Shown: piece by piece, positions 8,120 to 64,000 of the stretch | Layout: each line of letters opens with the position of its first letter | Numbering within the stretch: position 1 is the first letter of the stretch | NCBI GenBank assembly: GCA_002989075.1 | Contig: PSQN01000016.1 | Span: 1-64,000 of the forward strand | Length of the DNA stretch: 64,000 nt | From: Arthonia radiata | Taxonomy: Eukaryota; Ascomycota; Arthoniomycetes; Arthoniales; Arthoniaceae | Direction of reading: 5' to 3' | Notes under the pieces: model-generated | What the model saw: only the letters and a program-made list of their open reading frames with translations | Databases searched by the model: none | What the model was told of the DNA's origin: nothing | Program-made: the position numbers and the translations under genes

Positions 8120-9040
8120 TCTAAGGCAAAATCTACGTCCCGAGGAATCTAATCCAGAACATTATCAGTAACTTCCACGATAACCCAACTAAAGGACATA
8201 AAGGCATCGACAATACCATAGAAAAGATCACAAGAACCTACTACATCCCAAGAATCCGACACCACGTCGAGAATTATATCCGAGAATGCGACATATGCGC
8301 AAGAACTAAGCACCCGAGGCATTTACTATACGGCGAACTACAACTACTGGAGACACCCAAGAGACTATAGTATACAGTCTTACTAGACTTTATTACCAAG
8401 TTACCTACTTCCAAGGATCTATTCACAGGAGTAGCTTACGACGCTGTCCTAGTTATATGCGACAAACTAACAAAGTACGCATACTTCGTACCTTATAAGG
8501 AAGCCAGCAACTCAGAACAGTTAGCATATACCTTCCTTCGGATTATCTTAGCAAACTATGGCCAACCCCAAAGAATTGTCTCAGACAGAGACCGGAAATT
8601 CGTCTCACGGTTTTAGACATCCCTGATGCAACAGCTAGAGACAAAACAAAAAATGTCAACATCATTCCATTTACAAACAGACGGACAGACAGAACGAACA
8701 AATTAAACACTAGAACAGTATCTCCGGGCATATATTAACTACCAGCAGAACAACTGGGTACAGTTACTACCAGTAGCGCAAGCAGCGCACAACGATACAA
8801 AGAACGATACAATCAAGACAACTCCGTTCTACGCCTTATATAGCTATCACCCTCTTTAGGGAAGACAACTACAAAATACCACAGAGAACGAATCAGCTAC
8901 ACGAATAGCTACGAACATAAAGCACCTGCACCAGCAGTTAAAGTCTGACAGCGAGTTTATTAACGAACGAACAAGAAAGTGGTATAACAAGTTAAGAACA
9001 ACCCCAAACATAAGCATAAAAGAGGGGGGAAGAGCTTACT
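8120..9040 (+). pseudogene. Integrase region (zinc-binding and DDE core)
   Basis: A zinc-binding HHCC block (GHKGIDNTIEKI ... CDICARTKHPRH) lies at about 8200-8320 and a catalytic core region (ICDKLTKYAYFVPY, IVSDRDRKFVS, TDGQTERTN) at about 8455-8705. The order after RNase H is standard for Ty3/gypsy. Confidence 0.85.
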
Positions 9041-9259
9041 TGCTTATAAGAAACTTAAAAACTATCAGACCAAGCAAAAAACTCGACTATACCAAGACAG
9101 GACCGTTTAAAATCTTACAGCAATTGGGACCCGTAATATTTAGACTCGAACTCTCGAAGACAATAAGAATACATCCTGTATTTTACGTAGCGCTGTTGGA
9201 ACCAGCCTACTCCCGAGAAGCAGAACGACCTAACCCAGAAATCCTTGCTGACAATCAAG

Positions 9260-9440
9260 AACCCGAGTATAAAGTCGAAACAATTCGAGCCCACAGACAA
9301 CACCGAGGCAAACGACAGTATCTCATAAAGTAGAAAGGATATCCCAAACACGAAAATCAATGGGAACCGGAACGAAACCTGACTAACTATAAAGACACTA
9401 TTCGACGATATTGGGACCAGAATATCAATCGGTCGTAGCA
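9260..9440 (+). pseudogene. Chromodomain at the end of pol
   Basis: After a C-terminal integrase block (RIHPVFYVALLEPAY, in the 9040-9333 frame) comes YKVETIRAHRQHRGKRQYLI and then a GYPKHENQWEPERNL block. This is the E-x-I ... YLVKWKGY ... TWEP pattern of chromodomains. In chromoviruses this domain reads heterochromatin marks and biases insertion, which fits the nested pile-up here. Confidence 0.8.
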
Positions 9441-14684: not shown

Positions 14685-14880
14685 TATAATATATAAATAT
14701 TCTAATAGTGAATTAGAATAAAATATTATCTCTTTAAAAAGACTATAATTCTAAAAGAATATCTTCTATCTAGTAGATATATTTCTTTTCTTTTTTTTTA
14801 ATAATTAGCTTAAATATAAATAGAGCCTATTTAGACTCTTGTTACTATCTAATTACTTTCTATTTTATATCTAGATTATA
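14685..14880 (+). repeat. 5' LTR of element D
   Basis: 196 bp, the same length as the LTRs of elements A, B and C, and aligning with 33052-33247 through many transitions. Confidence 0.85.
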
Positions 14881-17800
14881 TTCTAATTATTTTAGGTCTA
14901 TAAGAGAGATAGCTAGTAGTTAAATACCTTATTAATATTACTTAAAGGTTAATCTAGTATAATTAAGTATAGCTAAGACTCTATATATAAATTTAAATAA
15001 ATAAATAATATTAAAATTAATTAATAGTTAGTACTAATAAGTATTATACTTAAAGAAAATAAGTAAAGAATTAAGTATATAATAGTAGTTACTTTATATC
15101 TACTAAATAAGTAAAATATAGAGTATAGTAAAATATAGCTAATACTAAAGAAGACTAGAATTCTTATATAAAATCTAGTAGTAATAATAATAAGTAAGAA
15201 GGCTTATAAGCTAGTAAATAGATACTAAGTAGATTATAAACTAAAGAAAATAATAGTTTAATCTAAGATAATAATAATAAAGATAAAGAAGCCTACTAAG
15301 GCTTAGACTATAATAAGTCTCTCTTTAGTATTTTCTTAAATACTAAAGTAAAATAATTAAGATAAGCAATATTAGTATAGTATTAATAATATACTATTAA
15401 AAAGCTTGAGCTTAAAAAGTAAATACTTAAAGTTAAGCTTTAGTCTATCTATAATTTAGAGGCTAGTAGTAAGTAGCTATAAAGTAATTTAAGCCTTCAA
15501 AGCTAAATTAATAAGCTTTTTAAGAAAAAGATATTTAAGCTTAAAAAAGCTATAAGATCTATAGATACTTAATAGACTTAAAATATTAAAAAAAGATATT
15601 AAATAGCTAATATATTAGACTCTGTTAATATTTATATTATTACTTAGTATATTTAGAAACTTACTAAAGATTTAGTAAATAGATAGTAAATTTATACTAA
15701 AGAGAATAAAAAAAAGATATTACTTTATATATAGGTATACTTTAAAGAATAGATAATAGAAAATATTATTAATCTAGCTATAGCTACTATAGCTAATAAA
15801 AAAAGTTTTTATATTAATATAAAGTTTAATATAGAAGCTTAAGAACTTTTTAAGCTTTTTATAGAATAAAGAAACTAAGTTACTAGATAGTAAGATATTA
15901 AACCTAAATTAAACTATATTTTACTATATATACTTATCTTTATAGATTAAAATAAAGCTAATTAAATAAGGTCTCTTAGAGAATCTACTTAAAGATATTA
16001 ATAAGCTTCTAAAAAAGATTTATTAGTATATAAATATTAATTATAGTATAGTATAGAACTTCTATACTATTACTAATATAAGCTAAAATAACTTAGATAG
16101 TAGATAAAATATAACTTATAGTAGATATAATACTAGAGTAACTCTATAGAAGTTAAGCTATAAATAAGATAGTTTATACTAAGAATAAAATAACTTACTA
16201 GTCTAATAAATAGATACTAGTTCTACTATATAGAGATAAATAGAGTTAATATATAGTAAGATAAATATTATTTACTTTATATATAATTATAAAGGGTATT
16301 ATACTACTAAGTATACTTTACTTTAAACTAGTATTAATTTAATACTAGTTAGATAAAAAAATAATAGGTCTTAAAAGTAAGTCTTATATCTTTAAAGCTT
16401 AAAGCTATTAATTAATAGTAAGAATAAATTAAAGTCTTAGTATAGCTAGATAGGTTACTATAAGAGGTTCTTATACTAGTAGGGTTTAGTATAAAGATTA
16501 ACCTTATTAATTACTATATTATACTTAAATAAGAATAGTAAAAGTTATATAGAGTAGAGCTTCTATATACTAAGTTTCTTAATAAGAATAAGCTATAGCT
16601 CTATAGTATATATAATATAAATATAACTATAAAAAATATATAGAGAGAGAAATAGTATACTAACTCTATCTATATTTAGCTAGCTTTATAGATTATAGTC
16701 TTATTTTAGAATATCTATAGCTTAAGTAAGCTAAGCTCTAAATTAGCTAAATAATAAAAATTAATACTTAAAGAAATCTTTCTATATCTAAAAAATAGAT
16801 AGCTAGAGCTAGATTTATTAAAATTATCAGTAAAGATATAATTCTAGTATACTTATAAAGAGATAAGTAGTACTATTCTGTAGCTCTATAGATAAAAGTA
16901 GATAAATACTATAAGTATTAGATAGTAGTTCTATTAGATATTAGTTTACTACTAAACTAGACTCTAGATAGTAAGTCTAAGAAAATAGAAAAGTAAGATA
17001 AGCTTTTTTTTTAGTATACTAAATATAAAGATATCTTTTCTAAAGAACTATTAAGTAAGCTTATACTACTTAGTAAGTATACTTATAAAATTAAACTTAA
17101 GAATAGTATAGAACCTCTATATAAGCTAACTTATTCTATATTAGAAAATAAGCTAAAAATACTTTAAAACTATCTAGATTTAGTAATTAAAAAAGAGTAG
17201 ATATAACTTTTTACTAGTTTAGTAGATATTTTAGTTCTATTTATATTTAAGATAGATAGATTATTAACCCAACAATATATTAACTACTATAGTTTAAATA
17301 ATATAAATATAAAAAATTACTATATATTACTACTAGTTTCTAAGATTCTTAATTATTTATAAGGCTTAAAGATATTTATAAAGCTTAATCTTTAAGATAC
17401 TTACTACTATATTTATAATTATAAAGAAAATAAATAAAAGGTAGTATTTTATATTTAATATAGGTACTAAAAGTATCTAGTAATATCTTTTAGACTAGTA
17501 AATACTTCTACTATATTCTAGATATATATCTATAAAGCTATAAATAATCTTATTAATACTATATATATAGATAATATTTTAAATTTCTCTAAAGACAAGA
17601 AAAGCTATAAAGGCTATATTAAAGAAGTTCTATAAAGGCTTTATAAATAAAATTTATTTATAAAACTATTTAAGTATTAATTTTATACTACTAAGGTTTG
17701 TTTTTTAAAGTTTACTATAAAAGTTAATAGTATTAAAATAGACTTAAAAAGAGTATAGACTATAGCTAACTAGCTAGTTTCTACTATAGTAAGATAGATA

Positions 17801-17993
17801 TTATTCTTTTTAAAATTTATAAACTTCTACTAGTACTTTATTTATAAATTTAGCTATATTATAGTATCTATAAATATATTAATAAAAGATATTAAGTTTA
17901 ACTAGAATAAAGCTTAATAAAAAGCTTTTAAAGTACTAAAGTAAGCCTTTATAAATATATCTATACTAATATACTTTAATTTAGTACTACTAA
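14881..17993 (+). pseudogene. Element D, gag to RNase H remnants
   Basis: Aligns with element A from the leader through gag (near 15100-15900), zinc knuckle (about 16290), protease and reverse transcriptase (about 17190-17650), to the start of RNase H, where element E interrupts. No frame is usable. Confidence 0.75.
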
Positions 17994-18442
17994 TATTACA
18001 ATCTTACTATATTAGACTAGTACAAGGCTGAGCACAGTTAGCCTTATTAGAGCATTATATAGTATACCCAATAACTTTAATATAGCGACGTTACTAACGT
18101 CGCTATATCGTATTAGAATCTTAATAACGCGACAGAAGAGTTATTAAAACTATTAAATACAGAAGAATATACCTATATACCTTAGACTATATAGCTAAAC
18201 TAATAGCTAACCTTAAGATAGACTTTAGTCTATTAACTTAATATTTAAATATAAGTTCTTTAACTATATTTAAGTAACGTACTTTACCTTCTATCTACTT
18301 AGTTAAGCCTCTCTTATTCTTTATAATCTATCTTGCCTCTCCTATCTTTTAGTCTCTAGTATATAAGATACCTACTACTAAGGTCAATAAGTATATAAGA
18401 TAAGTAAGCCTTAGTTCGGTTCTCCTAGCGACTAGCATTATA
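17994..18442 (+). repeat. 5' LTR of element E
   Basis: Starts TATTACAATC (TGTTACGGTC in less mutated form) and ends GCATTATA. The first ~175 bp differ from other family-1 LTRs and include the CpG palindrome; the rest is shared with them. Confidence 0.85.
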
Positions 18443-31190: not shown

Positions 31191-33051
31191 ACTAACTATC
31201 TTAACAACTAATATTTAGACTTTATAATAGTAGATATCTTACTCTAAATATAGAGAGATAGCTAATTAATATTTTTATTAAATATTAACTTAAGCTTATT
31301 TTCTCTAGTAGTAGTAGATACTATCTAAACTAGTACTAATAATAAGATAGATATATATCTATATCTAGTAGTATTCTTTTTAAAAAAGTTTATAGATACT
31401 AAGTTAATATAAAAGAGTATTATAGTTATAGTTAAGATATAACTAAGATATAGCTCTAGTGTAGCTCTATTAGACTACTAAAGTATAGAGTTTTATTTAA
31501 GAAGTAGAAGACATTTTTCTTCTATTTCTTAGAGATTAGTTCTACTATTAATATAAGGTATTATTCTACCTATTCTATACTACTAGAGTATCTATTTATA
31601 GTTAAGATATAATATCTATAATCAAGAGCTTATAGTAATATAGACTAGCTTTAAGTACTAGTACTATTATTTTATTAGTATATAGTACTTAGTAAAGATT
31701 TTAATAGACTATAATAATTTATAGTATTTTATAATAATAAAAGTATTATTTTACTAATAGGTATACTAAATAGAAAATCTATTAATATTCAATTTTAAAA
31801 TACTATACTATATAGATAGTAAGAATCTAGTAAATATACTATTATACTATTTAGATTATAAAAATTTATATAAAATAAAGAAAAATATTACTAATAAAAT
31901 ATTACTAAGTCTATAGTAGAAGCTTAAGAAAGATACTACTTTATCTAGTACTAGAAAAGAGCTCTTTAGCCTAAAAGAAGATATAATTACTATCTTAATT
32001 ATATTACTTAAGAATTAGTTTAAATACTATTAGTAGTTTAGCTACTAACTTAAAATTCTAGATGTAACTATAATTTAACTTAGAGATAAATTAGAGTTAG
32101 ATATAGACTTTATATAGAATATCTTCTTATAATCTTAATTTTAGAAGTCTAATAAAGAAAAGTCTTTATAAAGTAGAAAGTATTAAAGTTAAAATTATTA
32201 GCTAGAACTAAAAACTAATGTAGTAATAAAATAGTAATAGATTACTATTAAGCTAGTAATAGATTACTATTAAGCTAGTAATAGATTACTATTAAGCTAG
32301 TAATAGATTACTATTAAGCTAGTATAAGAAAATACTATATAAGTTAAATTAACTTAAATACTCTAATAAGGCCTATTTTAAACTCTAAGTTATTAAAGTA
32401 TATAGAATAGTTAGTTAATAGTTTTAAATTATTATACTAAGATAGTAAAATTTAAATTTTAGAATACTCTATATTAAAGTTAGAAATTATAAACTAAAAT
32501 TATAATTATAAGCTTACTAGTTACTTTAAGATAAAAAAGACTCTAGAAATTCTTAAATATAAATATATATAAAGTAATATAGTAACGTATATTTAAAACT
32601 TTATTACTAAATATAATATATATTAATATACTACTATAAAAAGGTATAAGCTATATAGTAAAATAGTAGTAATACTAGTTCTAATTAGACTCTTTAAAGA
32701 CCTATCTTTAGACTTTATTATTAAGCTACTAATAGTATACTTAAAGAATAGAAATATTATTATTTTAATTCTTATAGTTATTAACTACTTTTTAAAATTT
32801 ATAATCTATATTCTAGTTAGTAAAACTATAGATACTATAGAGCTAGTAGAAGTACTCTATAAGTACTAGGCTAAAATATTAAGATTTCTAAAAAGTCTTT
32901 TATCTAATAAAGAATCTATATTTACTAGCTTATATTAAAGTACCTTCTATTAGTATTTAGCTATAAAATAAAAGTTAAGTATAGTATTTTACCTTTAAAC
33001 CAATAGCTAGACTAAGTACTAGAGCTAGAAGCTTAAAAACTATTCATATGT
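31191..33051 (+). pseudogene. Element D piece, RNase H to mid-integrase
   Basis: Resumes element D where 17993 stopped and aligns with 36240-37940 of element A through near-continuous transitions. Interrupted at 33051 by element A. Confidence 0.8.
32233..32320. repeat. Tandem array, four identical 22-bp units
   Basis: Four exact copies of a 22-bp unit starting AGTAATAGATTACTATTAAG at 32233, 32255, 32277 and 32299. Elements A and B have a single copy at the equivalent place. The units are identical in already RIP-mutated form, so the amplification came after the mutation. No spacers, so not CRISPR. Confidence 0.93.
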
Positions 33052-33247
33052 TGTGATGCATAGACGTCCCGATGGCGAATTGGGACGGAATGTTGCCTAT
33101 TTGGGAAGGCTGCGATCCTTGGAGGATATCTTCCCTCCAGTGGACGCATCCCTTTCTGGTCTCCTCAATAATTAGCTTGAACACCAGTAGGGCCTATCTG
33201 GGCCCTTTTTGCCACCTGACTGCTCCCTGCCCTACACCCAGATCACA
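33052..33247 (+). repeat. 5' LTR of element A
   Basis: 196 bp, TGTGATGCATAGACG to CAGATCACA. The word AATAATTAG at 33167-33175 complements the primer-site word found next to the LTRs of copies B and C. Confidence 0.95.
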
Positions 33248-33256
33248 TTAGTACGC

Positions 33257-33283
33257 CTGTATCTTATACACATCTCCTCCCTN
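33257..33283. other. Probable sequencing-adapter remnant and ambiguous base
   Basis: Bases 33257-33277 read CTGTATCTTATACACATCTC plus C, one mismatch from the Tn5/Nextera mosaic end CTGTCTCTTATACACATCT and its following CC. The only N of the window is at 33283. The stretch does not resemble the leader of the other family-2 copies. Assembly artefact is the simplest reading. Confidence 0.75.
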
Positions 33284-33393
33284 TGGCCGGTGCTGGCAAG
33301 TACCGTGTTCGAAGAGAACGAGCAAGGAACCAAGCACGCGACGGTGGTCGCTTTATATCCGCCGCACAAGCAGAATACAGAGCGTGGCAAAAC

Positions 33394-34200
33394 ATGGCCA
33401 ACGCCGAAGAAGACCAGGACCCTTACATGGGATCCGGCGACGACGATGAGCAAGAGGGCTCACAAGCCGGCGAACAGACGCCGAGCAGATCGCGAACTGG
33501 GAAGGACGATGGTCTAAACCAAAACAATGACGACGACGAAGGGGCCTACCAAGGCTCTGACCGCGAAGAATCCCTCTTCAGCGCCTCCTTAAGCGTTGAG
33601 GTACGAAAGCTGAGACAAGAACTGCTAGCACAGCAGCAGCAGCACACTATTGAGAAGCTCAAGCTCGAAAAGCGAATGCTCGAAGTTGAGCTCCAGTCCG
33701 CCCGCAATTCGGGGGCTGGTAGCAAGCGGCTACGGGGCGATTCAAGCCTTCAAAGCCAGATCAACGAGCTCCTCAAGAAAGAGGCGCCCAAGCTCGAGAG
33801 AGCCATAGGCTCTGCGGGCACTCGATGGACTCAGACCATTGAGGAAAGATTTCAGATGGCCAACGTGTCGGACCCCGACGACGTTCGTGTCATTACCTGG
33901 TGCGTCCAGGGACTCCCCAGAGACCTGGCGGATAGGTGGCGAACTCACGCCGAAGAGAACAAAGAGAAGACGTCGCTCTACGTGTGGGCGTACTTCAAAG
34001 GATGGGTAATGGAATGCATCGTCGACCCAGCCACGGCTACTGCAGCCAACGCAGAAAAGTTCTTTACGTCGACGCAGAGTTCGACGCAGAAGCTCGAGGA
34101 CTTCCTGAGCTTTCTGCAGAACGAAGAAACCAAGTTGCCAGGTGGCAAGATGCCGGACCCGAATCGGGCCGCATTCTACTACACGCGCTTGCCTTCATAG
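33394..34200 (+). CDS. gag (capsid region) of element A
   Basis: 268 codons. The N-terminus is acidic and Gly/Ser-rich, followed by a coiled-coil-like stretch (VRKLRQELLAQQQQHTIEKL) at about residues 70-110 and a helical capsid-like region (WTQTIEERF, LADRWRTHAEE, FLSFLQNEETKL) at about 140-260. It is followed by a basic RGG-rich stretch and the zinc knuckle. Confidence 0.8.
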   Translation: MANAEEDQDPYMGSGDDDEQEGSQAGEQTPSRSRTGKDDGLNQNNDDDEGAYQGSDREESLFSASLSVEVRKLRQELLAQQQQHTIEKLKLEKRMLEVELQSARNSGAGSKRLRGDSSLQSQINELLKKEAPKLERAIGSAGTRWTQTIEERFQMANVSDPDDVRVITWCVQGLPRDLADRWRTHAEENKEKTSLYVWAYFKGWVMECIVDPATATAANAEKFFTSTQSSTQKLEDFLSFLQNEETKLPGGKMPDPNRAAFYYTRLPS

Positions 34201-34284
34201 ATCAAGGCGAAGCTAATTGAGCAAGGTCTCTTAGAGAATCTGCTCAAAGACACGAACGAGCTTCTGAAGAAAGTTCGTCAATAT

Positions 34285-34632
34285 GTGAATGTTGATCGTG
34301 GTGTATCGCGGGACGCCCGCAACACCAACACAAACCGAGATCGCTCCGGTGGCGGATCGGGTATAAACCGTGGCGGTCATAACGCCAGAGCATCCCCACA
34401 GGGGTCGGGCCGCGGACGAGGCGGTTCATACCGAGGACGAGGCAACTTGCCGGTCCGACAAAGAGACAATGGCTCTGCCGCACAGGGGCAACCAGGGTCG
34501 ACATACAGTAAGGCAAACATTACCTGCTTTACGTGCAATCAGAAAGGGCATTATGCCACTGAATGCACTACGCCCCAAACCGGTGTCAATTCGACGCCAG
34601 TTGGGCGGGGAAACGACAGGCCCCGAGGGTAA
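34285..34632 (+). CDS. Nucleocapsid region with CCHC zinc knuckle, element A
   Basis: An Arg/Gly-rich segment (GRGRGGSYRGRGN) followed by CFTCNQKGHYATEC at 34525-34566, a C-x2-C-x4-H-x4-C RNA-binding knuckle. This is the standard C-terminus of gypsy Gag. Confidence 0.85.
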   Translation: MNVDRGVSRDARNTNTNRDRSGGGSGINRGGHNARASPQGSGRGRGGSYRGRGNLPVRQRDNGSAAQGQPGSTYSKANITCFTCNQKGHYATECTTPQTGVNSTPVGRGNDRPRG

Positions 34633-35453
34633 GCCTCGCGTCCCTGAAGCTTGGGGCTGTCGATCAACGGCGAGGACGAATTGAAGTCTCGGCACAGCTG
34701 GGCAGGTCGCCGCAAGAGGTCCTCGCGCTGGTAGATTCCGGTGCAGAGATCAACCTCATTGATCATCGTATTGTGCTTGAAAGAGGATGGCAAAAATCGC
34801 ATGGAGTAAAGCTCCCGCATGCCAAGTTCCTTGATGAAAATAAGCTGCAGCTCTACGGCGCGTATAACGTGAATGTAACCGTGAGAGACGTGTATGGGGA
34901 GAAACGGCATTGCCAACTCCGCCTATATTCGGCCAACTTTGTAGGATACAGCCTCGTCTTGGGATACCCATGGCTTGAGCAAGTTGAGCCCCGGATCAGC
35001 TGGGCGATGAGAACAATCGCTTGGGGAAACCTCCCTGCGCCCGAAGAACGGGTGGCAGGAGCTGAATCTGTTGAGATCGTCAATGAAGACGTAATTTTAG
35101 CATGTTTGCAAAGAGGCGAACAGTGCTACTCCGCGATCCCGCAGATGGGAGCGGATGGACGTTATAAATATCAAATAGCGGTCCTATCAGACGTCAGTTC
35201 GCCGCCAGACCGGACCCCGGATGGCGAGCCTGAGAAAGTAGAGAAGCGAGATGAGCTTCCTCCTCAGTACGCTGAATATAAAGATATCTTTTCTGAAGAA
35301 CTGTCGAGTGAGCTTGCGCCGCTTGGTGAGCAAACTCATAAGATCGAGCTCAAGGATGGCACGGAACCTCCGCATAAGCCAATCTACCCTGCATCGCAGG
35401 ATGAGCTGAAGACGCTCCGGGAGTACCTAGATACTATGATCAAGAAAGGGTAG
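34563..35453 (+). CDS. Protease and start of reverse transcriptase, element A
   Basis: A 296-codon frame. The aspartic protease core LVDSGAEINLIDHRIV lies from 34728; LRLYSANFVGYSLVLGYPWL follows as in gypsy retropepsins. The C-terminal part (YKDIFSEE, APLGEQTHKIEL, KPIYPASQDEL) is the conserved entry to reverse transcriptase. Confidence 0.85.
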   Translation: MHYAPNRCQFDASWAGKRQAPRVSLASLKLGAVDQRRGRIEVSAQLGRSPQEVLALVDSGAEINLIDHRIVLERGWQKSHGVKLPHAKFLDENKLQLYGAYNVNVTVRDVYGEKRHCQLRLYSANFVGYSLVLGYPWLEQVEPRISWAMRTIAWGNLPAPEERVAGAESVEIVNEDVILACLQRGEQCYSAIPQMGADGRYKYQIAVLSDVSSPPDRTPDGEPEKVEKRDELPPQYAEYKDIFSEELSSELAPLGEQTHKIELKDGTEPPHKPIYPASQDELKTLREYLDTMIKKG

Positions 35454-36164
35454 ATACAACCCTCCACCAGTCCGGCGGGTGCCCCAGTCCTGTTCGTGCC
35501 CAAGGCAGACGGATCGTTGAGACTGTGTGTTGACTACCGCGGTTTGAACAATGTGACTGTAAAGAATCGCTACGCATTGCCGCTAGTCTCTGAGATTCTT
35601 GATCGCCTGCAAGGCTCGAAGGTGTTTACGAAGCTTAATCTTCGCGATGCCTATCACCGTATCCGCATCCGCAAAGGGGATGAGTGGAAGACGGCGTTTC
35701 GTACCCGATACGGGCACTATAAATACCTGGTGATGCCTTTTGGACTAGCAAACGCCCCTGCTACGTTCCAGGCATATATCCACAAAGCCATAGGCAATCT
35801 TGTTGATACCGTGTGAATCGTTTATATAGACGATATCTTGATTTTCTCTGAAGACGAGGAAAGCCATGAAGGCCATGTCAAAGAAGTCCTGCGAAGGCTC
35901 CGTAAATGGGGTTTATTTGCAAAGCTGTCCAAGTGTCAATTTTACACCACCAAGGTTTCTTTCCTAGGGTTCACCGTGGGAGTCGATGGTGTCGAAATGG
36001 ACCCGGAAAGGGTGCGGACTATAGCCGAATGGCCAGTCCCCACCACCGCAAAGCAGATCCTGTCCTTCCTGGGATTCGCAAACTTCTACCGGCGATTTAT
36101 CTACGGATTTAGCCGCATCGTAGCGCTAATGAACGCACTGACGAAAGACGTCAAGTTCGTCTAG
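35454..36164 (+). pseudogene. Reverse transcriptase region, element A
   Basis: Blocks [20 protein letters not shown] (near 35490), [25 protein letters not shown] (near 35735) and the YIDDILIFSEDEESHEGH palm core near 35826 are readable, then the GFTVGVDGVEMDPERV connection and SFLGFANFYRRFI. Confidence 0.9.
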
Positions 36165-36740
36165 GGCAAAGCCCAACAAGAAGCTTTTGAAGCGCTGAAG
36201 CAAGCCTTCATGAATGTACCAGTGCTGACGCACTTTGACCCGGCACTGTCGATCGTTTTGATGACTGACGCATCAGACTTTGCAATGGCAGGCATCTTAC
36301 TTCAGCTGAGGGGAGATGGCCGATTGCCATTGCCGTTGAACATCAACTTAGGCTTGCCTACACTAGATGTGGCGGACACCGCCCGGACTGGCACCGATAA
36401 CAAGGCGGACACACACCTGCATCCGGTAGCGTTCTTTTCGAAGAAATTCGTAGACGCTGAGCTAAGATATAATACCTATGACAAAGAGCTCATAGCAATA
36501 TAGGCCAGCTTCAAGCACTGGCGCCATTACCTCATTGGTGCACAGCACTTAGTAAAGGTCGTGACAGACCACAATAATCTGCGGTATTTCATGACAACGA
36601 AAGTATTGTCTCGCCGACAGGCGCGCTGGGCAGAAGACCTGTCAGCATTTGACTTTGAAATACTATACCGTGTGGGTAGCAAGAACCCAGCAGACGCGCC
36701 GTCGCGCCGTCCAGATTACGAGAATTTGCGTGGAGCAAAG
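36165..36740 (+). pseudogene. RNase H region, element A
   Basis: Readable blocks: THFDPALSIVLMTDASDFAM (near 36228), HPVAFFSKKFVDAELRYNTY (near 36420), VTDHNNLRYFMTTKVLSRRQ (near 36560) and DAPSRRPDYENL (near 36690). Confidence 0.9.
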
Positions 36741-36929
36741 GAAGACAACGCCAACGAGATGTTGCCGAGCCTGCAGCAGAAGCTTAGGAGAGGTGCTGCT
36801 TTGCCTGGTGCTGGGGAAGAGCCCCCTAGCCCAGAAGAAGGTGTGATTGCTGCCTTAATTACATTGCTTGAAAATTAGTTTGAACACTGTCAGCGGTTTG
36901 GCCACCGACCTGAAACCCCGGACGCGACT

Positions 36930-38777
36930 GTGGCCCAAATCGGGGGCAGATCGGAGTCAGATACAGACCTCATGCAGGACGCCCAGGAGCGAGAAACGCG
37001 TCCGTCTTCCCCTGCTGATGCAGAGCCTTTTCCGGTAGCTCTCGTATCACGAGTTGAGGTAGTTGCAGCTACCGCTCTCGAAACAGCTTACAATGATACT
37101 CCTCGGGGTCTCGCGACCCTAATCCTCGAAGCCCAGCAGAGGGACGCCTTTGTGAAGCAGAAAGTATCGGAGTTGAAATCATTGGCTGGGACTGAAGGTC
37201 AGCAGAGTGACAAAACGGCAACGGATCGCCGTCAAGCCGGCACGAGAAAGCGCCGTGCGAGTCGAATCGACTCAGATGCCCCGACAGGGCCCGACTCGAA
37301 CTCCGAGTCTCCAAAGCACGCAGAATGGTCAGTCGACAGCCACGGGTTGTTGCGCCAAGGTGGCAAAATCTGGATACCAGAATGCCCTGCGTTGAAGCTT
37401 GAAATCACAAGCAGAAATCATGATGATAAGCTTGCTGGCCACTTCAAGGTCGAGAAGACCCTCGAAATCCTGAGACGCAAATATGCGTGGGAAAAGATGG
37501 CAACGTATATCAAGAACTTTGTTGCTGAATGTAACATATGCCAACGGACAGCCGTAAAGAGGCATAAGCCATACGGCGAAATGGCGGCGATGCCGGTCCC
37601 GATTGGCCCCTTTGAGGACCTATCCTTGGACTTTGTTGTCAAACTACCGATGGTTCTTTTAAAGAACGGGGACATTGTTGATTCAATCCTCGTGGTCGTA
37701 GACCGCTTCTCTAAGTTTGTAACCTATATTCCAGTCAGTGAAACCATGGATGCCATGGAGCTGGCGGAAGTGCTTTACAAACACTGGGCGAAAACGTCGG
37801 GATTCCCGAGAAGCCTCTTGTCTGACAGAGGATCTGTGTTCACCAGCTCATATTGGAGCACCTTCTGCCAGCATTTGGCCGTAAAACGAAGGTTGAGCAC
37901 AGCGTTTCACCCTCAAACTGATGGCCAAACCGAGCGCCAAAACCAGGAGCTTGAAAACTACCTGCGTATCTACATCTCTTGGGATCAAGATGACTGGCAT
38001 GAGCATCTGGAAGAAGCTGCTTTTGCGTACAATTCAAAAGTTCATTCATCGACGAAAATTTCGCCGATTGAATGCGCGTTCGGTCGCGTTGCAGACGTAC
38101 CAGACGGCGCGCCGCCGCCGGATCGGCACCACACCGTGGTCAAGCCGGACGACCTTCCTGTCGGCGAGGACACCTCCCGTCAAGGGGAGAGGCAGCCTAG
38201 GCCAGAACATCCTATGGCAGTTAAGCATATAGAAGAACGCCTTCTCCGCCAACAAGAAATGAAGCAGCAGCTAGAGAAAGCTCAGCGTCTGCAGACAGAA
38301 TGGTACAACACCAAGCACACACCAAAACACTATGCAGTGGGTGACTTAGTGCTGCTGTCGTCAAAGAACCTTAAGACAAAGAGGCCAATAAAGAAGCTCG
38401 ACGATCGAAGCTTAGGACCATTCAGGATCCTTAAGAAAGTAGGCAAACAAGCTTACCAGCTGGCACTGCCAAACTCCTACCGCATCCACTCTGTCTTCCA
38501 CGTGTCCTTACTGGAGCCATATCGCCGTCGGCCCGGCACGGAACCGCCTGGTCCGGTCGAAGTCGATGGTGGTGAAGAATGGCTCGTTGAGGCGATCCGC
38601 TTTAAGGTCAAGAACAAAGACCAGTATTGGACCAAGTGGCAGGGGTGGTCGGAGGCAAATAACACGATGGAGCCGCGGGCACATCTTGAAGACTCTGACG
38701 CCCTCAAGAAATTTGAGAAGCGTGAAGACGCTGAGCCGAGAGGCAAGCGTCTGAGACGAACTAGGCAACGCGGATAA
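36930..38777 (+). CDS. Integrase with C-terminal chromodomain, element A
   Basis: A continuous 615-codon frame. It carries a zinc-binding HHCC region (NHDDKLAGHFKVEKTLEIL, then ECNICQRTAVKRHKPYGEM at about 37530-37585) and a DDE core with LSLDFVVKLP and VVVDRFSKFVTYIPVSETMD (first Asp region), LLSDRGSVFTSSYW (second), and TDGQTERQNQELENYLR (third). The GPF-like module is LGPFRILKKVGKQAYQLALP. A chromodomain lies at about 38560-38730 (WLVEAIRFKVKNKDQYWTKW, then QGWSEANNTMEP). The Pro/Arg-rich insert near 38100-38200 is unusual for the family. Integrase inserts the element DNA; the chromodomain probably guides it to heterochromatin. Confidence 0.92.
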   Translation: MAQIGGRSESDTDLMQDAQERETRPSSPADAEPFPVALVSRVEVVAATALETAYNDTPRGLATLILEAQQRDAFVKQKVSELKSLAGTEGQQSDKTATDRRQAGTRKRRASRIDSDAPTGPDSNSESPKHAEWSVDSHGLLRQGGKIWIPECPALKLEITSRNHDDKLAGHFKVEKTLEILRRKYAWEKMATYIKNFVAECNICQRTAVKRHKPYGEMAAMPVPIGPFEDLSLDFVVKLPMVLLKNGDIVDSILVVVDRFSKFVTYIPVSETMDAMELAEVLYKHWAKTSGFPRSLLSDRGSVFTSSYWSTFCQHLAVKRRLSTAFHPQTDGQTERQNQELENYLRIYISWDQDDWHEHLEEAAFAYNSKVHSSTKISPIECAFGRVADVPDGAPPPDRHHTVVKPDDLPVGEDTSRQGERQPRPEHPMAVKHIEERLLRQQEMKQQLEKAQRLQTEWYNTKHTPKHYAVGDLVLLSSKNLKTKRPIKKLDDRSLGPFRILKKVGKQAYQLALPNSYRIHSVFHVSLLEPYRRRPGTEPPGPVEVDGGEEWLVEAIRFKVKNKDQYWTKWQGWSEANNTMEPRAHLEDSDALKKFEKREDAEPRGKRLRRTRQRG

Positions 38778-39058
38778 GAAAGGGCTACAAGCCTACGCGA
38801 TTAGCCCACGATGTGACGCCGAATAGAAGGCGGAATACCTCGAGTACAGTTTAGAACATAGAATTGGTGTAGTATCAAACCCCAAGACTATTCATACATG
38901 ATTGTGAAGCTCAAGCCATGAGAAAGCTGAAATGAGACTTGTACAGGAAGAAATGCAGAACAATTCCGATAAGCCAAGGAAAACCACTCACACAGACCAA
39001 ACCCCAGCCAAACAAAAGGCAGAAAACCACGAAAAGACTACCCGAACTGGCACCGAAG
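38778..39058 (+). other. Spacer between pol and the antisense gene, element A
   Basis: About 280 bp with no ORF of note on either strand. Both the end of pol and the end of the antisense blocks point into it, so it should hold both 3' ends. Confidence 0.5.
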
Positions 39059-39403
39059 TTAGTACGGATCGGCGGTATAATACTGTTTGACCCAGCCGCG
39101 ACCACCGTCAACGCGGTCCCGAATCCAATCAACCAGACCTGCCATAGCCAGCTCGTGAGGAGCCTTATTCGCAGGCGGCTGAGGGCCGTACAACCCTATA
39201 CCAGAATCGAAGCTCTGGCGTAGCGCCTTGATGCGCTCAAAATCGTCAGTATCGGCCTGCTCGACCGACTTGGTGCCCAGACCGCGCTGCCAGGCCTGCA
39301 GCTGAACGCAAAAGGCGCGAAGCAGAGTAAGATAGTCGTCGCGGAAAGACTCTTCGTCATCCCAGACGTCCTCGCCAGAGGTCAAGAAGAAGTTGGCGCG
39401 CAC
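39059..39403 (-). CDS. Antisense gene of element A, distal block
   Basis: About 114 open codons on the strand opposite to gag-pol. The sequence is globular rather than repetitive: ANFFLTSGEDVWDDEESF, then LLRAFCVQLQAWQRGLG and a C-terminal DWIRDRVDGGRGWVKQYY. I recognise no domain. The matching strand of elements B (about 44100-44500), C (about 63400-63790) and D also carries it, so it is inherited within the family. The gap to the next block (39404-39464) has intron-like edges (GTAAGT and TAG on the minus strand). Confidence 0.6.
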   Translation of the reverse strand: MRANFFLTSGEDVWDDEESFRDDYLTLLRAFCVQLQAWQRGLGTKSVEQADTDDFERIKALRQSFDSGIGLYGPQPPANKAPHELAMAGLVDWIRDRVDGGRGWVKQYYTADPY

Positions 39404-39464
39404 GAGGAGGTTGCAGGCACGTCTCCACCGAGCGGGGACCTAGCACATGTCAATATGGGGTCAA

Positions 39465-39713
39465 TTAGTACCCAAGACGGGGGGGTATCAGACTTACCAT
39501 CTCACACTTGTCTCCTGACCTCCCAACACTAGCACAGCGAGCACACTTAGCGTACTGCCCCTTGGGCCACTCGCAGGTCCAGTCCTCGTGATGCTTGAAA
39601 TCGGAGTTCGCGGAAGGACCACCACGTGCAGCCATGTCGCCAAACAAGGCCTTCATGCAACGGCAGCACACTGGGACGTAAGCCTCTGGCTGAGGCTGGA
39701 TTGACGCAGGCAC
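39465..39713 (-). CDS. Antisense gene of element A, cysteine-rich middle block
   Basis: About 82 codons of the reported frame; the same frame stays open for some distance upstream without an ATG. It has paired cysteines, CCRCMKALFGD and CEWPKGQYAKCARCASVG followed by DKC, with two His nearby (KHHEDWTC). This spacing suggests a metal-binding (zinc-finger-like) module, but matches no family I can name. Antisense to the retrotransposon. Confidence 0.6.
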   Translation of the reverse strand: MPASIQPQPEAYVPVCCRCMKALFGDMAARGGPSANSDFKHHEDWTCEWPKGQYAKCARCASVGRSGDKCEMVSLIPPRLGY

Positions 39714-39871
39714 GGCGCGAAAAGCGGGATTCGAGGAGGCAGACCGGCGAGACTTCGCAGGCGACTCGGGCTCATAAGCAGTGCCGCGGTAATAGGGAGA
39801 ACGGACAATCTCGTCATCGTCGGAGTCGTCTTTACGGACGTGACGCTTTCAACGAGCTAGAATGCTAACAG

Positions 39872-40153
39872 TCAGACTAGGACAAAGCAATGAGAGATAG
39901 GAGACTTACGAGGAGTCGCAGGAGTCAGAGACACGCTACCTAGTTCGGGAGAGCGTAGAACAGGAGAAGCCGCAGATGATTCAGGAATTGGTGAAGCAAC
40001 CTTGGGAGCTTTCTTCTTGCGGGCGTCACGAAGAAGAGCTTCAGGATCAACAGCGGCTTCAGGGTCCTCAATGCCGCGAGTTGAGCGGCGAGTTGGCGCT
40101 TCAGGAGAGCTCGCTCCAGCAGCGGGTTTGTTGACGGGGTTAAAACCCGACAT
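39872..40153 (-). CDS. Antisense gene of element A, N-terminal block
   Basis: About 93 codons starting with ATG at 40153 (MSGFNPVNKPAAGASS). Low-complexity, Ser/Pro/Ala-rich with basic patches (RDARKKKAPKVASP), probably disordered. The minus strand shows a strong donor-like GTAAGTC near 39917 and a branch-like CTGAC before the next block, so the blocks may be exons of one antisense gene. No joined product is inferred. The same start (MSGFNPINKPAA) is still readable in element B at 43403. Confidence 0.62.
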   Translation of the reverse strand: MSGFNPVNKPAAGASSPEAPTRRSTRGIEDPEAAVDPEALLRDARKKKAPKVASPIPESSAASPVLRSPELGSVSLTPATPRKSPISHCFVLV

Positions 40154-40747
40154 AGTAGAGATTGTAAAGGCGAATTAAAGGCAATCTGACACCGGATTAG
40201 CTACGAACTTATCACCCAAGAAGAGAAGTAAAGGCCTACCAGAGAAGAGAAGCTTGCAGGCCAAGCAGAAGAGTATAATAATGTTGAAGAAAGAAAGAGG
40301 AAGTTCGAAAGAGCAAGAGCCTTGTTTTATGCCTATCGTCAGGTACCGATAACAAAGCTTCCGCCTACAGGTACGGATTTGGGAGCAAAGAAGCCCATTC
40401 ACGCAGGTTGCTACTGCCTACAGGGGCAATTGATCGGCAAAAGCGTGCATGAGAGTATGCAAAAGAACGCGAAATTAGGTGAAAATGATACAAAACCTCA
40501 CTACCGAGCTCACAACTCAGGCTCGGGAGCTTCAAATTAAAAGTAAAGCTCAGCACTACAACTCGGTGCTGCAGAAAACCAGTACCAAACGACGCGTAGG
40601 ATGACAGTGAGCAACATCACTCTTTTCCCGACTGAACGCAGACATGAGCCAGCGGGTTTTTAACGAGGTTGTTGCCCTGCGTAAGACGATAAATGGAAGG
40701 TGCGATAGAGATGGCGGATTGTACCCGGATCGAGGGCGATCCTCCTT
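40154..40747 (-). promoter_or_regulatory. Likely promoter/leader of the antisense gene
   Basis: About 600 bp between the antisense start at 40153 and the purine tract. The small ORFs here are not convincing. On the minus strand this is where an antisense promoter would have to lie. No specific box is claimed. Confidence 0.35.
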
Positions 40748-40762
40748 AAGGGGGAAGGCAGT
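40748..40762 (+). other. Polypurine tract of element A
   Basis: AAGGGGGAAGGCAGT lies directly before the 3' LTR start at 40763; mirrored in element B just above 42793. Confidence 0.7.
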
Positions 40763-40958
40763 TGTGATGCATAGACGTCCCGATGGCGAATTGGGACGGA
40801 ATGTTGCCTATTTGGGAAGGCTGCGATTCTTGGAGGATATCTTCCCTCCAGTGGACGCATCCCTTTCTAGTCTCCTCAATAATTAGCTTGAACACTAGTA
40901 GAGCCTATCTGGGCCCTTTTTGCTACCTGACTGCTCCCTGCCCTACACCCAGATCACA
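40763..40958 (+). repeat. 3' LTR of element A
   Basis: 196 bp; about five transitions from the 5' LTR; followed by the TATGT target duplication. Confidence 0.95.
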
Positions 40959-42597
40959 TATGTCTATATCTCTTAGAATTAAGATAATTAGTATAAGTAC
41001 TTAAAAGAAGCTACTTTTATATATAACTTAAAAATCTATTTATTAATAAAAATACTACTTATTAAATATATATTTAATTATATTATAGATATACTAGATA
41101 TTATACTACTACTAGATTAGTACTATACTATAGTTAGACTAAATAATCTTTCTATTAGTAAGAATATCTTCTACTAAAAAGAAAGGTAGCCTAGACTAGA
41201 ATACTCTATAGTAGTTAAGTATATAGAAGAGTACATTTTCTACTAATAAAAAATAAAGTAGTAGCTAAAGAAAGCTTAGTATTTATAGATAGAATAGTAT
41301 ACTACTAAGTATATATTAAAAGACTATATAGTAGATAATTTAGTACTACTACTATTAAAGAACCTTGAAATAAAGAGACTAATAAAGAAGCTTAATAATT
41401 AAAGCTTAGAACTATTTAAAAATTTAAAAAAAGTAGATAAATAAGCTTACTAGCTAGTACTACTAAATCTCTACTATATTTACTCTATCTTTTATATATT
41501 TTTACTAAAGCTATATTACTTTAAAATTAAGAATAAAGACTAGTATTAGACTAAATAATAGAGATAGTTAAAAATAAATAATATAATAGAGCTATAAATA
41601 TATCTTAAAGGCTCTAATACTCTTAAGAAATTTAAAAAGTATAAAGATACTAAGCTAAAAAGTAAGTATCTAAGATAAACTAGATAATATAGATAAAAAA
41701 GGGCTATAAGCCTATATAATTAGTCTATAATATAATACTAAAGAGAAGATAGAATATCTTAAGTATAGTTTAGAATATAAAATTAGTATAATATTAAGCT
41801 TTAAGACTATTTATATATATATAAAGCTTAAGCTATAAGAAAGCTAAAATAAGACTTATATAGAGAGAAAATATAGAACTATTTTAATAAGCTAAGAAAA
41901 ACTACTTATATAGACTAAACTCTGGCTAAATAAAAGGTAGAAAACTATAAGAAGACTATTTAAACTAATACTAAAGTTAGTATAAATTAGTAGTATAATA
42001 CTATCTAATCTAGCTATAATTACTATTAATATAGTTCTAAATCTAGTTAACTAAATCTACTATAGCTAGGTTATTAGAAGTCTTATTTATAGATAGCTAA
42101 GAGCTATATAACTCTATACTAGAATTAAAGCTCTAGTATAGTAACTTAATATACTTAAAGTTCTCAGTATTAGTTTTTTTAACTAACTTATTATTTAGAT
42201 TATATTACTAGATCTATAGCTAAATATAAAAGATATAGAGTAGAGTAAAATAGTCTTTATAGAAAAACTCTTTATTATTCTAGATATTTTTGCTAGTAGT
42301 TAAAAAGAAATTAGTACATATAAGAAAGTTATAGATATATCTCTACTAAGTAAAGATCTAGTATATATTAATATAGAGTTAATTAGTATCTAAAATAGAG
42401 AGTATTAGACTTATTATCTTATACTTATCTTTTAATACTAGTATAGTAAGTATACTTAGTATACTATCTCTTAGACTACTTATAAGTCTAGTCTTTATAA
42501 AACTTAAAGTTAAAGTTTATAGAAGAACTACTATATATAGCTATATTACTAAATTAGTTCTTTATATAATAGTAGTATACTAAGATATAAGCCTCTA
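40959..42597 (+). pseudogene. Element D piece, integrase to antisense-gene region
   Basis: Aligns with 37960-39690 of element A: the rest of integrase, chromodomain, spacer and antisense distal block, all strongly TA-shifted. Interrupted by element B with duplication CTCTA. Confidence 0.8.
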
Positions 42598-43402: not shown

Positions 43403-44500
43403 ATGTCGGGTTTCAACCCTATCAACAAACCCGCTGCTAGAGCGAGCTCTTCTGAAGCGCTAACTCGCCGCTTAACTCGCAGCATTAAGGACTCTAAAGC
43501 CGCTATTAATCTTAAAGCTCTTCTTTATAACGCCCGCAAGAAGAAAGCTTTTAAGATTGCTTTACTAATTTCTAAATTATCTGCGGCTTCTTCTGTTTTA
43601 CGCTCTCCCGAACTAAGTAGCGTATCTCTAACTCCTACGACTCCTCGTAAGTCTTCTATCTCTTATTGCTTTGTCCTAGTCTAACTATTAGCATTCTAGC
43701 TCGTTAAAAGCGTTACGTCCGTAAAGACAACTTCGACGATAACGAGATCGTCCGTTCTCCCTATTACCGCGGTACTGCTTATAAGCCCGAGTCGTCTGCA
43801 AAGTCTCGCCGGTCTACCTCCTCGAATCCCGCTTTTTGCGCTGTATCTGCGTTAATCTAGCCTTAGCTAGAGGCTTATATCCTAGTATACTGCTATTGCA
43901 TAAAGACCTTGTTTAGCGACATAGCTGTACGTAGTAGTCCTTCTGCGAACTCTGATTTTAAGTATTACGAGGACTAGACCTGCAAGTAACCTAAGAGGCA
44001 GTACGCTAAGTATGCTCGCTGTACTAGTGTTAGGAGGTTAGAAGACAAGTATAAGATAATAAGTCTAATACCCCCCCGTCTTAGATACTAATTAACTCTA
44101 TATTGATATATGCTAGGTTTCCGCTTAATAGAGACGTATCTGCAACCTTCTCGTACGCGCTAACTTCTTCTTAACCTCTGGCGAGGACATCTAGGATAAC
44201 GAAGAGTCTTTCCGCGACGACTATCTTACTCTACTTCGCGCCTTTTGCGTTTAGCTGTAGGCCTGGTAGCGCGGTCTAGGCACTAAGTCGGTCGAGTAGG
44301 CCGATACTGACGATTTTAAGCGTATTAAGGCGCTACGCCAGAGCTTCGATTCTAGTATAGAGTTGTACGGCCCTTAGCCGCCTACGAATAAGGCTTCTTA
44401 CGAGCTAGCTATAGTAGGTCTGGTTGATTGGATTCGGGACCGCGTCGACGGTGGTTGCGGCTAGGTCAAGCAGTATTACACCGCCGATCCGTACTAACTT
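43403..44500 (+). pseudogene. Antisense gene region of element B
   Basis: Reads forward here because the element is inverted. The N-terminal block from ATG 43403 (to 43684) is still open, and intron-like and cysteine-rich parts follow in the same order as in element A. Its survival in an independent copy shows the antisense gene is a stable part of the family. Broken. Confidence 0.65.
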
Positions 44501-60400: not shown

Positions 60401-63400
60401 TTTCTGAGATTTATAAACTTCTATCGGCGATTTATCTACGGATTTAGCCGCATCGTAGTGCCAATAAACGTACTAACGAAAGACATTAAGTTTATCTAGA
60501 GCAAAGCCTAATAAGAAGCTTTTAAAGCGCTAAAGCAAGCCTTTATAAATATACTAGTGCTAACGTACTTTAACTCGGTACTATCGATCGTTTTAATAAC
60601 TAATGTATTAGACTTTATAATAGTAGGCATCTTACTTTAGTTAAGGGAAGATAGCCGATTACTATTGCTATTAAATATTAACTTAGGCTTGTCTATACTA
60701 AATATAGCGGACACCGTCTAGACTAGTATTAATAATAAGGCAGATATATACCTACATTCAGTAGCGTTCTTTTTAAAGAAATTTGTAGACGCTAAGCTAA
60801 GATATAATACCTATAATAAAGAGCTTATAGCAATATAGAGTAGCTTTAAGTATTAACGCTATTACCTTATTAATGTACAGTACTTAGTAAAGGTCGTAAC
60901 AGACTATAATAATCTACAGTATTTTATAATAATAAAAGTATTGTCTTGCCGACAGACGCGCTAGATAGAAGACCTATTAGTATTTAACTTTAAAATACTA
61001 TACTATACAGATAGCAAGAACTTAGCAGACGCGCCGTCGCGCCGTCTAGATTACAAGAATTTACGTGAAGCAAAGGAAGATAACGCCAACAAGATATTAC
61101 CGAGTCTATAGCAGAAGCTTAGGAGAGATGCTACTTTGCCTAGTACTAGGAAAGAGCCCTCTAGCTTAGAAGAAGGTATAATTGCTGCCTTAATTATATT
61201 GCTTAAAAATTAGTTTAAACACTATTAGTAGTTTAACTACTAATCTAAAACACTAAACGCGACTGTAGCCTAAATTGAAGGTAAATCGGAGTTAGATACA
61301 GACCTTATATAGGACGCTTAGAAGCAAGAAACGCGTCCGTCTTTCTCTACTAATATAGAGCCTTTTTTAGTAGCTCTCGTATTACGAGTTAAGATAGTTG
61401 CAGCTATCGCTCTTAAAATAGCTTACAATAATACTTCTTGGGGTCTTGCGACCTTAATCCTCGAAGTCTAGTAGAGAAACGCCTTTATAAAGTAGAAAGT
61501 ATCGGAGTTAAAATTATTAGCTGAGACTAAAGGTCAGCAGAGTAACAAAACGGCAACAGATTGTCGTTAAGTCGGTATAAGAAAGCGCTGTATAAGTCGA
61601 ATCGACTTAGATGCTCTAATAGGGTCTAACTCGGACTCCAAGTCTCTAAAGTACATAGAATAGTTAGTCGATAGCTATAGGTTGTTGCGTTAAGATAGTA
61701 AAATCTAGATATTAGAATACTCTACGTTAAAGCTTAAAATTATAAGCAGAAATTATAATAATAAGCTTGCTGGCTATTTTAAAGTCGAGAAGACCCTTAA
61801 AATTCTAAGATATAAATATACTTAGGAAAAAATAGTAACATATATTAAGAACTTTGTTACTAAATATAATATATGCTAACGAACAGTTGTAAAGAGGTAT
61901 AAGCTATATAGCAAAATAGCAGCGATATTAGTCTCAATTAGCCTCTTTAAGGACCTATCCTTAGACTTTATTGTTAAACTACCGATAGTTCTTTTAAAGA
62001 ACAGAGACATTGTTAATTTAATTCTTGTAGTTATAAACCGCTTCTTTAAGTTTATAATCTATATTCTAGTTAGTAAAACTATAAATGCTATAGAGCTAGT
62101 AAAAGTACTTTATAAATACTAGGCAAAAATATTAGGATTTCTGAGAAGCCTCTTGTTTAATAGAGAATCTATATTTACTAGCTTATATTGAAGCACCTTC
62201 TGCCAGTATTTAGCCGTAAAACGAAGATTAAGCACAGTATTTTACCCTTAAACTGATAGTTAAACCGAGCGCTAGAACCAGAAGCTTAAAAACTACCTAC
62301 GTATCTATATCTCTTAGAATTAAGATAATTGGTATAAGTATTTAAAAGAAGCTACTTTTACGTACAATTTAAAAGTTTATTTATCAACAAAAATTTTGCC
62401 GATTGAATGTACGTTCGGTCGCGTTACAGACGTATTAGACGGCGCGCCGCCGCTAGATCGGTACCGCACCGTAGTTAAGCCGAACAACCTTTCTATTAGT
62501 AAGAATACCTTCTGTTAAGGGGAAAGGTAGTCTAGACTAAAATATTCTATAGTAGTTAAGTATATAGAAGAACGCCTTCTTTGCTAATAAGAAATAAAGT
62601 AGCAGTTAAAGAAAGCTTAGTGTCTATAGACAGAATAGTACAATATTAAGTATATACTAAAATACTTTGTAGTAGGTAACTTAGTACTACTATCGTTAAA
62701 GAATCTTAAGACAAAGAGGCCAATAAAGAAGCTCGACGATCGAAGCTTAGGATTATTTAGAATCCTTAAGAAAGTAGGTAAACAAGCTTACTAGCTAGCA
62801 CTACTAGACTCCTACCGTATCTACTCTATCTTTTATGTATCCTTACTAGAGCTATATCGCCGTTAGTCTGGTATAGAACCGTCTGGTCCGGTTAAAGTCG
62901 ATAGTAGTAAAGAATAGCTTATTAAGGCGATTTGCTTTAAAATTAAGAATAAAGACTAGTATTGAACTAAGTAGTAGGGGTAATTAAAGGCAAATAACAC
63001 GATAAAGCTATAGGTACATCTTAAAGACTCTAACGTCCTTAAGAAATTTAAGAAGCGTAAAGACGCTAAGCCGAGAGACAAGCGTCTGAGACAAACTAGG
63101 CAACGTAAATAAAAAAGGGGTACAAGCCTACGCAATTAGTCTACAATATAACGCCGAAAAGAAGGTAGATTACCTAAAGTATAGTTTAGAACATAGAATT
63201 AGTATAGTATTAAACTTTAAGACTATTTATATATAATTATAAAGCTTAAGCTATAAGAAAGCTAAAATAAGACTTGTATAGGGAGAAAATATAGAACTAT
63301 TTCGATAGGCCAAGAAAAACTACTTATATAGACTAAAACCTTAGTCGAATAAAAGACAGAAAACTATAAGAAGACTACCTAAACTAGCACCGAAGTTAGT

Positions 63401-64000
63401 ACAGATCGGCGGTATAATACTACTTAACCTAGCTATAACTACTATCGACGCAGTTTTAAATCTAATTAACTAGATTTACTATAGCTAGCTTGTAAGAAGC
63501 CTTATTTGTAGATGGCTGAGAGCCGTATAACTCTATATTAGAATCGAAGCTCTAGCGTAGTACCTTAATACGCTTAAAATCGTTAGTATCGGCCTACTCA
63601 ACCGACTTAGTGCTTAGATCGCGCTACTAGGCCTATAGCTAAACGTAAAAAGCGCGAAGTAGAGTAAGATAGTTGTCGTAGAAAGACTCTTTGTTATTCT
63701 AGACGTCCTCGCTAGAGGTTAAAAACAAGTTAGCGCGTATAAGAAGGTTATAGATACGTCTTTATTGAGCAGAGACCTAGTATACGTTAATATAGAGTTA
63801 ATTAGTATCTAAGACGAGAGAGTATTAGACTTACTATCTTATACTTGTCTTTCAACCTCTTAATACTAGTATAGCGAGCATACTTAGCGTACTATCTCTT
63901 AGATTACTTATAAGTTTAGTTCTTATAATACTTAAAATTAGAGTTTGTAGAAGAACTACTATATATAGCTATATTGCTAAATAAGGTCTTTATATAACGG
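57283..64000 (+). mobile_element. Element C: family-2 gypsy copy, runs off the window
   Basis: 5' LTR at 57283-57478, primer-site word at 57481-57489, gag (about 57730-58560), zinc knuckle (about 58860-58905), protease (about 59060), reverse transcriptase (about 59810-60460), RNase H (about 60560-61060), integrase (about 61680-62570), chromodomain (about 62900-63060), then the antisense gene region from about 63390 to the end. Intermediate RIP: CpA lost, many CpG kept. Its 3' LTR is outside the window. Broken. Confidence 0.92.

Follow-up and report, generated by a model that had tools for sequence, protein, structure and literature searches.

Gypsy retroelements with an antisense gene in the stretch from pol to the 3' long terminal repeat (LTR) have been described in both fungi and plants, and the review PMC7264820 groups such genes as aORF-3R. 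Among fungi, brtn is an antisense gene of this sort, found in the Boty Ty3/gypsy element of Botrytis cinerea (excerpts of PMC8365987, PMC7264820 and PMC4227169, citing Zhao et al. 2011); the review lists brtn in its class and mentions Sclerotinia, and an excerpt of PMC5987419 reports a Monilinia transcript similar to truncated Pol and BRTN. The review also names as plant members Grande gene23, RIRE2, Retand ORF4 (TRP28) and PvRetro13 ORF2, and suggests that the plant genes may regulate or assist the cycle of the element. Antisense TRP28 proteins are encoded by 97% of Retand clusters (excerpt of PMC11963269), and an upstream promoter of its own has been reported for the Grande antisense gene (excerpts of PMC7264820 and PMC11963269). 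The main text of a survey of fungal LTR elements (PMC3248453) uses the words 'antisense' and 'opposite' 0 times, and excerpts of PMC8773270 hold nothing relevant to the antisense gene. The present study concerns such a gene in element A, a Ty3/gypsy chromovirus in a 64,000-nucleotide stretch of Arthonia radiata DNA (contig PSQN01000016.1, positions 1 to 64,000; hereafter the window). By its antisense orientation, its position between pol and the 3' LTR, its presence in most copies and its pol-like conservation, the gene is of the aORF-3R/brtn kind. To our knowledge, the function of antisense genes in gypsy elements is not known. On sequence grounds, we consider this one very probably an additional antisense gene (aORF) of the chromovirus family and, more tentatively, take its product for an accessory protein.

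In element A the gene occupies 40153 to 39059 on the minus strand, in the interval that separates pol from the 3' LTR, and consists of three exons separated by two short introns, giving 327 codons. An earlier note, made from the letters of the window, had proposed three antisense blocks with intron-like edges and an upstream region of about 600 bp of their own. Both proposals stand, with introns running from GTAAGT to CTAG and a 609-bp region at 40154-40762, though the spliced frame of element A (984 nt) contains one in-frame stop, at codon 84, that the note did not mention. The parts of the gene are as follows.

40154-40762, minus strand: region from the ATG to the 3' LTR, 609 bp, putative antisense promoter judged by position only
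39910-40153, minus strand: exon 1, with the ATG and the start of the disordered N-terminal block (gene structure, codon use)
39857-39909, minus strand: intron 1, 53 nt, GTAAGT...CTAG
39498-39856, minus strand: exon 2, with a basic stretch and the Cys-rich block (gene structure, genome matches)
39440-39497, minus strand: intron 2, 58 nt, GTAAGT...CTAG
39059-39439, minus strand: exon 3, with the stop codon and the C-terminal block, helical in a low-confidence model

The open blocks at 39872-40153 and 39465-39713 extend partly into the introns. Intron 1 might instead end at another acceptor, which would remove codon 84 from the frame, but this option was dropped because, judged by eye, a branch-site-like CTGAC, recognised from the general branch-site consensus, lies close to the CTAG acceptor. 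A promoter scan found 0 sites with a bacterial model that is uninformative for fungal DNA.

Codon use argues for the predicted frames. When scored with a model trained on the gag-pol of element A, the predicted frame ranked first among the six frames for every exon, using a score that penalises frames with stops and with a narrow margin for exon 1 (0.10 versus 0.05). Nucleotide shuffles reached the observed score in 2 of 2000 trials for exon 1, 10 of 2000 for exon 2 and 0 of 2000 for exon 3. That the frames are open by chance and have no function therefore seems extremely unlikely: this reading can point to the fact that there are just three open blocks, one of them interrupted in element A, but the codon-use shuffles, the splice borders and the substitution contrast described below all argue against it.

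In the chromovirus family the antisense gene is a regular component that most copies carry. Searches of the genome (33.5 Mb, 16 contigs) gave 131 matches to exon 3, 128 to exon 2 and at least 151 to the pol end, the pol-end counts being lower bounds because 150 of 524 candidates were scored. We used 150 pol-end matches, comprising 123 from the family (identity of at least 41%) and 27 from other gypsy elements (35-40% identity), and looked at opposite-strand matches only when pairing them with exon 3. For 117 of the 123 listed family pol ends, an exon 3 match in opposite orientation lies no more than 900 bp away, at a distance of 280-299 bp in 105 cases, in agreement with the earlier proposal that the region was present before the family spread; 14 of the 131 exon 3 matches have no listed pol end beside them. 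For the other gypsy elements, 25 of the 27 have no opposite-strand exon 3 within 3000 bp, and the two that do, at 1251 and 1642 bp, were taken as neighbouring insertions. This second gypsy group, represented in the window at 8974-9408, is 35-40% identical at the pol end and has few stops per copy. One contig starts within element copy L048 (G000:C8:1-1410), which is hardly affected by repeat-induced point mutation (RIP) over the part present; the start is likely an assembly break at the repeat. The earlier note had also placed the region in further elements of the window, which it called B, C and D. Exon 3 does recur in the window, once weakly, at the three places below, among which those elements may lie.

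44120-44494, plus strand: exon 3 of an inverted neighbouring copy, 82% identical, 9 stops
63399-63773, minus strand: exon 3 of a copy at the window end, 61% identical, 12 stops
41980-42339, minus strand: weak exon 3 match in a heavily mutated fragment, 34% identity

Most copies of the family have been ravaged by RIP. At least nine stops interrupt the antisense gene in 76 of the 79 copies aligned besides element A, and in the first 40 rows of the alignment C-to-T and G-to-A changes predominate. Because RIP-type changes dominate, an ordinary ratio of nonsynonymous to synonymous substitution rates would mislead. RIP does not make transversions, and these were counted over an alignment of 37760-40960 with 80 rows; rows whose sequence was replaced or missing in a region were omitted there, which left 67 to 79 for each region. 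Transversions common to at least three copies were taken to mark lineages that spread, and rare ones to have arisen mostly after insertion.

Shared transversions occur at 4 of 984 exonic positions and 0 of 1018 in pol, against 19 of 1197 in introns, flanks and LTR (exons versus non-coding, p = 0.0099), so that conservation of the antisense gene is comparable to that of pol. The difference persists when the LTR is left out (15 of 1001 non-coding positions, p = 0.0187), at thresholds of 2, 5 and 10 copies (p = 0.0072, 0.0159 and 0.0159), and against the introns by themselves (3 of 111, p = 0.026). Rare transversions, in contrast, do not differ between exons (45 of 984) and non-coding sequence (65 of 1197; p = 0.38). 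Since exons are short of shared transversions and not of rare ones, the antisense gene was probably under constraint during the spread of the family, and the contrast supports the predicted exon-intron borders as well.

These data also bear on whether RNA rather than protein is what matters, with convergent transcription yielding double-stranded RNA or blocking the sense transcript, and the open frames a by-product. The antisense gene points towards pol and, with an LTR on either side, falls within the expected sense transcript; a role at the RNA level is raised in an excerpt of the review PMC7264820, and antisense long non-coding RNAs of transposons are reported from Blumeria hordei in an excerpt of PMC10648671. 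However, a role for RNA alone would not favour exons, in which shared transversions are scarcer than in introns and flanks, and the predicted frame is the one that codon use favours. We thus hold this alternative to be improbable.

Several observations weigh against a conserved protein-coding gene. All four shared exonic transversions alter the residue, leaving density alone, over few sites, as the signal. Some non-coding sites found in exactly three copies lie close together, as a single event or a misalignment might produce, although these vanish at a threshold of five copies, where 1 of 984 exonic and 11 of 1197 non-coding positions are counted. The structure model of exon 3, made without relatives in its input, is poor (mean predicted local distance difference test score, pLDDT, of 45), being helical at low confidence. 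Finally, codon 84 is a stop in 69 of the 79 copies, with 5 open and 5 in other states or gapped, and a complete stop-free antisense gene is absent among the 79 copies and element A; one copy, truncated where its contig stops, has no stop in the part that it retains.

The stop at codon 84 could have arisen in at least two ways. First, it could have been inherited from one master copy. Second, it could be repeated RIP damage. The mutated fraction of copies is 0.95 at this site and averages 0.47 over 25 sites in the same four-base context; however, 4 of the other 24 sites also reach at least 0.91, so that repeated RIP could account for it. In addition, the 5 of 79 copies open at codon 84 lie on at least four haplotype backgrounds, as defined by transversions. 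We lean towards repeated RIP damage, with a stop carried by the spreading lineages as the less probable course. Separately, element A and copy L010 are identical over 38963-40141, nearly the extent of the antisense gene, and L010 is RIP-mutated elsewhere (42 of 138 CpA sites in pol and 20 of 86 in the upstream region); the identity looks like the result of gene conversion or recombination.

The predicted protein begins with 140 codons that contain no Cys and in which P, S, T, A and G make up one half of the residues, and the 65 residues that follow hold 7 Cys and 2 His. The C/H positions (145, 146, 148, 170, 171, 176, 186, 189, 199 and 210), read by eye, do not give the C-x2-C-x4-H-x4-C spacing of a Gag-type CCHC zinc knuckle. 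Of the block characters proposed earlier, the disordered N-terminus and the Cys-rich middle hold, and the globular C-terminus is not confirmed, given the low pLDDT of exon 3. The basic stretches and the Cys cluster suggest a nuclear, zinc-binding protein.

Protein searches, which the earlier note had advised, brought no relative to light. In protein collections, the whole protein, exon 3, and exons 2 and 3 together had no match at E <= 10 (4076, 4 and 432 candidates, respectively); exon 3 also had no relative among viral or prokaryote genome contigs, and the pol end none among viral contigs, these collections not being built for fungi, so that the negatives say little about fungi at large. Against Pfam, the whole protein and its pieces gave a sole match, in the exon 1 frame (E = 0.61), which was taken as chance. 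A sequence search of the PDB returned five matches; in the best of them (E = 0.26) the Cys-rich block aligns with 50-residue YNG2, a chain of a chromatin-modification protein. We take this chain to be a PHD zinc finger, and at this E-value the match is no more than a hint. A comparison with DUF3716 (PF12511) was prompted by its Cys pattern; the family search gave no match to the protein and none in 14 controls, and so decides nothing, and a literature search found no paper linking DUF3716 with fungi.

A captured host gene, still doing or disturbing its old job, would fit the introns and the promoter-sized upstream region, which resemble those of an ordinary fungal gene. If so, an intact homologue might be sought outside the elements, yet none was found in this genome: stop-free matches number 2 of 131 for exon 3, both within elements, and 7 of 128 for exon 2, four in elements and three being pieces of 37-45 residues from the exon 2 start, and no full-length stop-free match to exon 2 or exon 3 was found elsewhere. 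The lack of a relative in Pfam, the PDB or the protein collections (which may hold few fungal proteins) points the same way, and we regard capture, which had been raised before, as unlikely, though worth keeping in mind.

A factor countering RIP or silencing had been suggested as well. It can point to a Cys-rich protein with basic stretches and to nothing direct, and in the 76 heavier-hit copies the mutated fraction of CpA is 0.71-0.83 in parts of the gene, against 0.70 in pol. The gene is thus as heavily RIP-mutated as pol and the family not shielded from RIP, in what is a weak test and silent on other kinds of silencing; we judge this role quite improbable. A bolder idea, to which we likewise give little credence, is that the protein is unrelated to BRTN and the plant antisense proteins and represents a new zinc-binding family, born or captured in the chromovirus, that would act in the nucleus against silencing other than RIP or steer integration into DNA that RIP has already mutated.

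For the favoured reading, an accessory protein encoded by an antisense gene of the element, a mechanism can be proposed. The gene would be transcribed toward pol from its own promoter within the 609 bp beside the 3' LTR, as its position suggests. Its introns could outlast retrotransposition because the genomic (sense) RNA carries their splice signals in the wrong orientation, which would allow an intron-bearing gene to travel in an element copied through RNA; the kept introns would also make capture from a spliced messenger unlikely. More tentatively, the protein may enter the nucleus by way of its basic stretches, its Cys cluster may bind zinc, and it may regulate or help the element cycle at the level of transcription, nuclear import or integration, as suggested for the plant genes. 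A nuclear accessory protein appears to be the likeliest role for the antisense product.

Element A is bounded by LTRs of 196 bp that differ at 5 of 196 positions, begin with TG and end with CA, and are flanked on their outer sides by the target-site duplication TATGT. Its gag-pol strand is open from 33394 to 38777, split into several pieces, and 36930-38777 gave four Pfam matches over the cut-off (PF17921, PF00665, PF24626 and PF00385); a Pfam scan of the putative gag at 33394-34200 gave no match over the cut-off. Because a chromodomain follows the integrase at the C-terminus of pol, element A, with its LTR ends and target-site duplication, is a Ty3/gypsy chromovirus. Its other features are listed below.

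33052-33247, plus strand: 5' LTR, 196 bp, TGTGAT...ATCACA, preceded by TATGT
33394-34200, plus strand: gag by position, the first open frame past the 5' LTR (list of open reading frames)
35496-36878, plus strand: further open frames (list of open reading frames)
36930-38777, plus strand: 3' part of pol, with integrase zinc domain, integrase core, SH3-like domain and chromodomain
38778-39058, no strand: non-coding spacer that separates the facing 3' ends of pol and the antisense gene, with 5 shared transversion sites in 281
40763-40958, plus strand: 3' LTR, 196 bp, followed by TATGT

Close to the inner edge of the 5' LTR, the sequence at 33257-33275 differs by a single mismatch from the mosaic end of a sequencing adapter, the sole N of the window lies at 33283 (region 33250-33283), and the direct repeat common to element A and the copy at 57619 begins at 33284. 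The adapter-like sequence is probably an assembly artefact replacing the primer binding region. Across the window, G+C falls to 17-20% at 12001-18000 and 41001-42000, in line with extreme RIP, against 50-57% at 33001-40000. Together with the style of the introns, the RIP-type decay suggests a filamentous fungus.

With more than 100 copies in a single genome, and with a trace of past constraint that is not of the kind RIP leaves, this family offers a good place to ask what gypsy antisense genes do, and the contrast between shared and rare transversions provides a simple way to seek selection in RIP-ravaged elements. The earlier note knew of no standard gypsy gene at this place and saw a candidate for an undescribed system, a view that gives way to brtn of Boty and the aORF-3R class, including plant gypsy families, in excerpts of PMC8365987 and PMC7264820. 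In those descriptions brtn occupies the same place as the gene here, antisense and between pol and the 3' LTR, which is a likeness of arrangement, and the aORF-3R genes of plant hosts share that position. Unlike the plant aORF-3R proteins, the protein here matches no transposase-28/TRP28-type or SMC-type Pfam domain. At the level of role, the comparison extends to human T-cell leukaemia virus (HTLV), whose antisense gene is named HBZ. In HTLV, too, the antisense gene of the retroelement is situated close to the 3' LTR, and its promoter is in the 3' LTR (excerpt of PMC7264820); in element A, by comparison, 609 bp separate the ATG from the LTR, and no Pfam domain was found in the product. The protein of element A thus has no relative that we found, and the kind of system to which it belongs, an antisense gene between pol and the 3' LTR, is already known.
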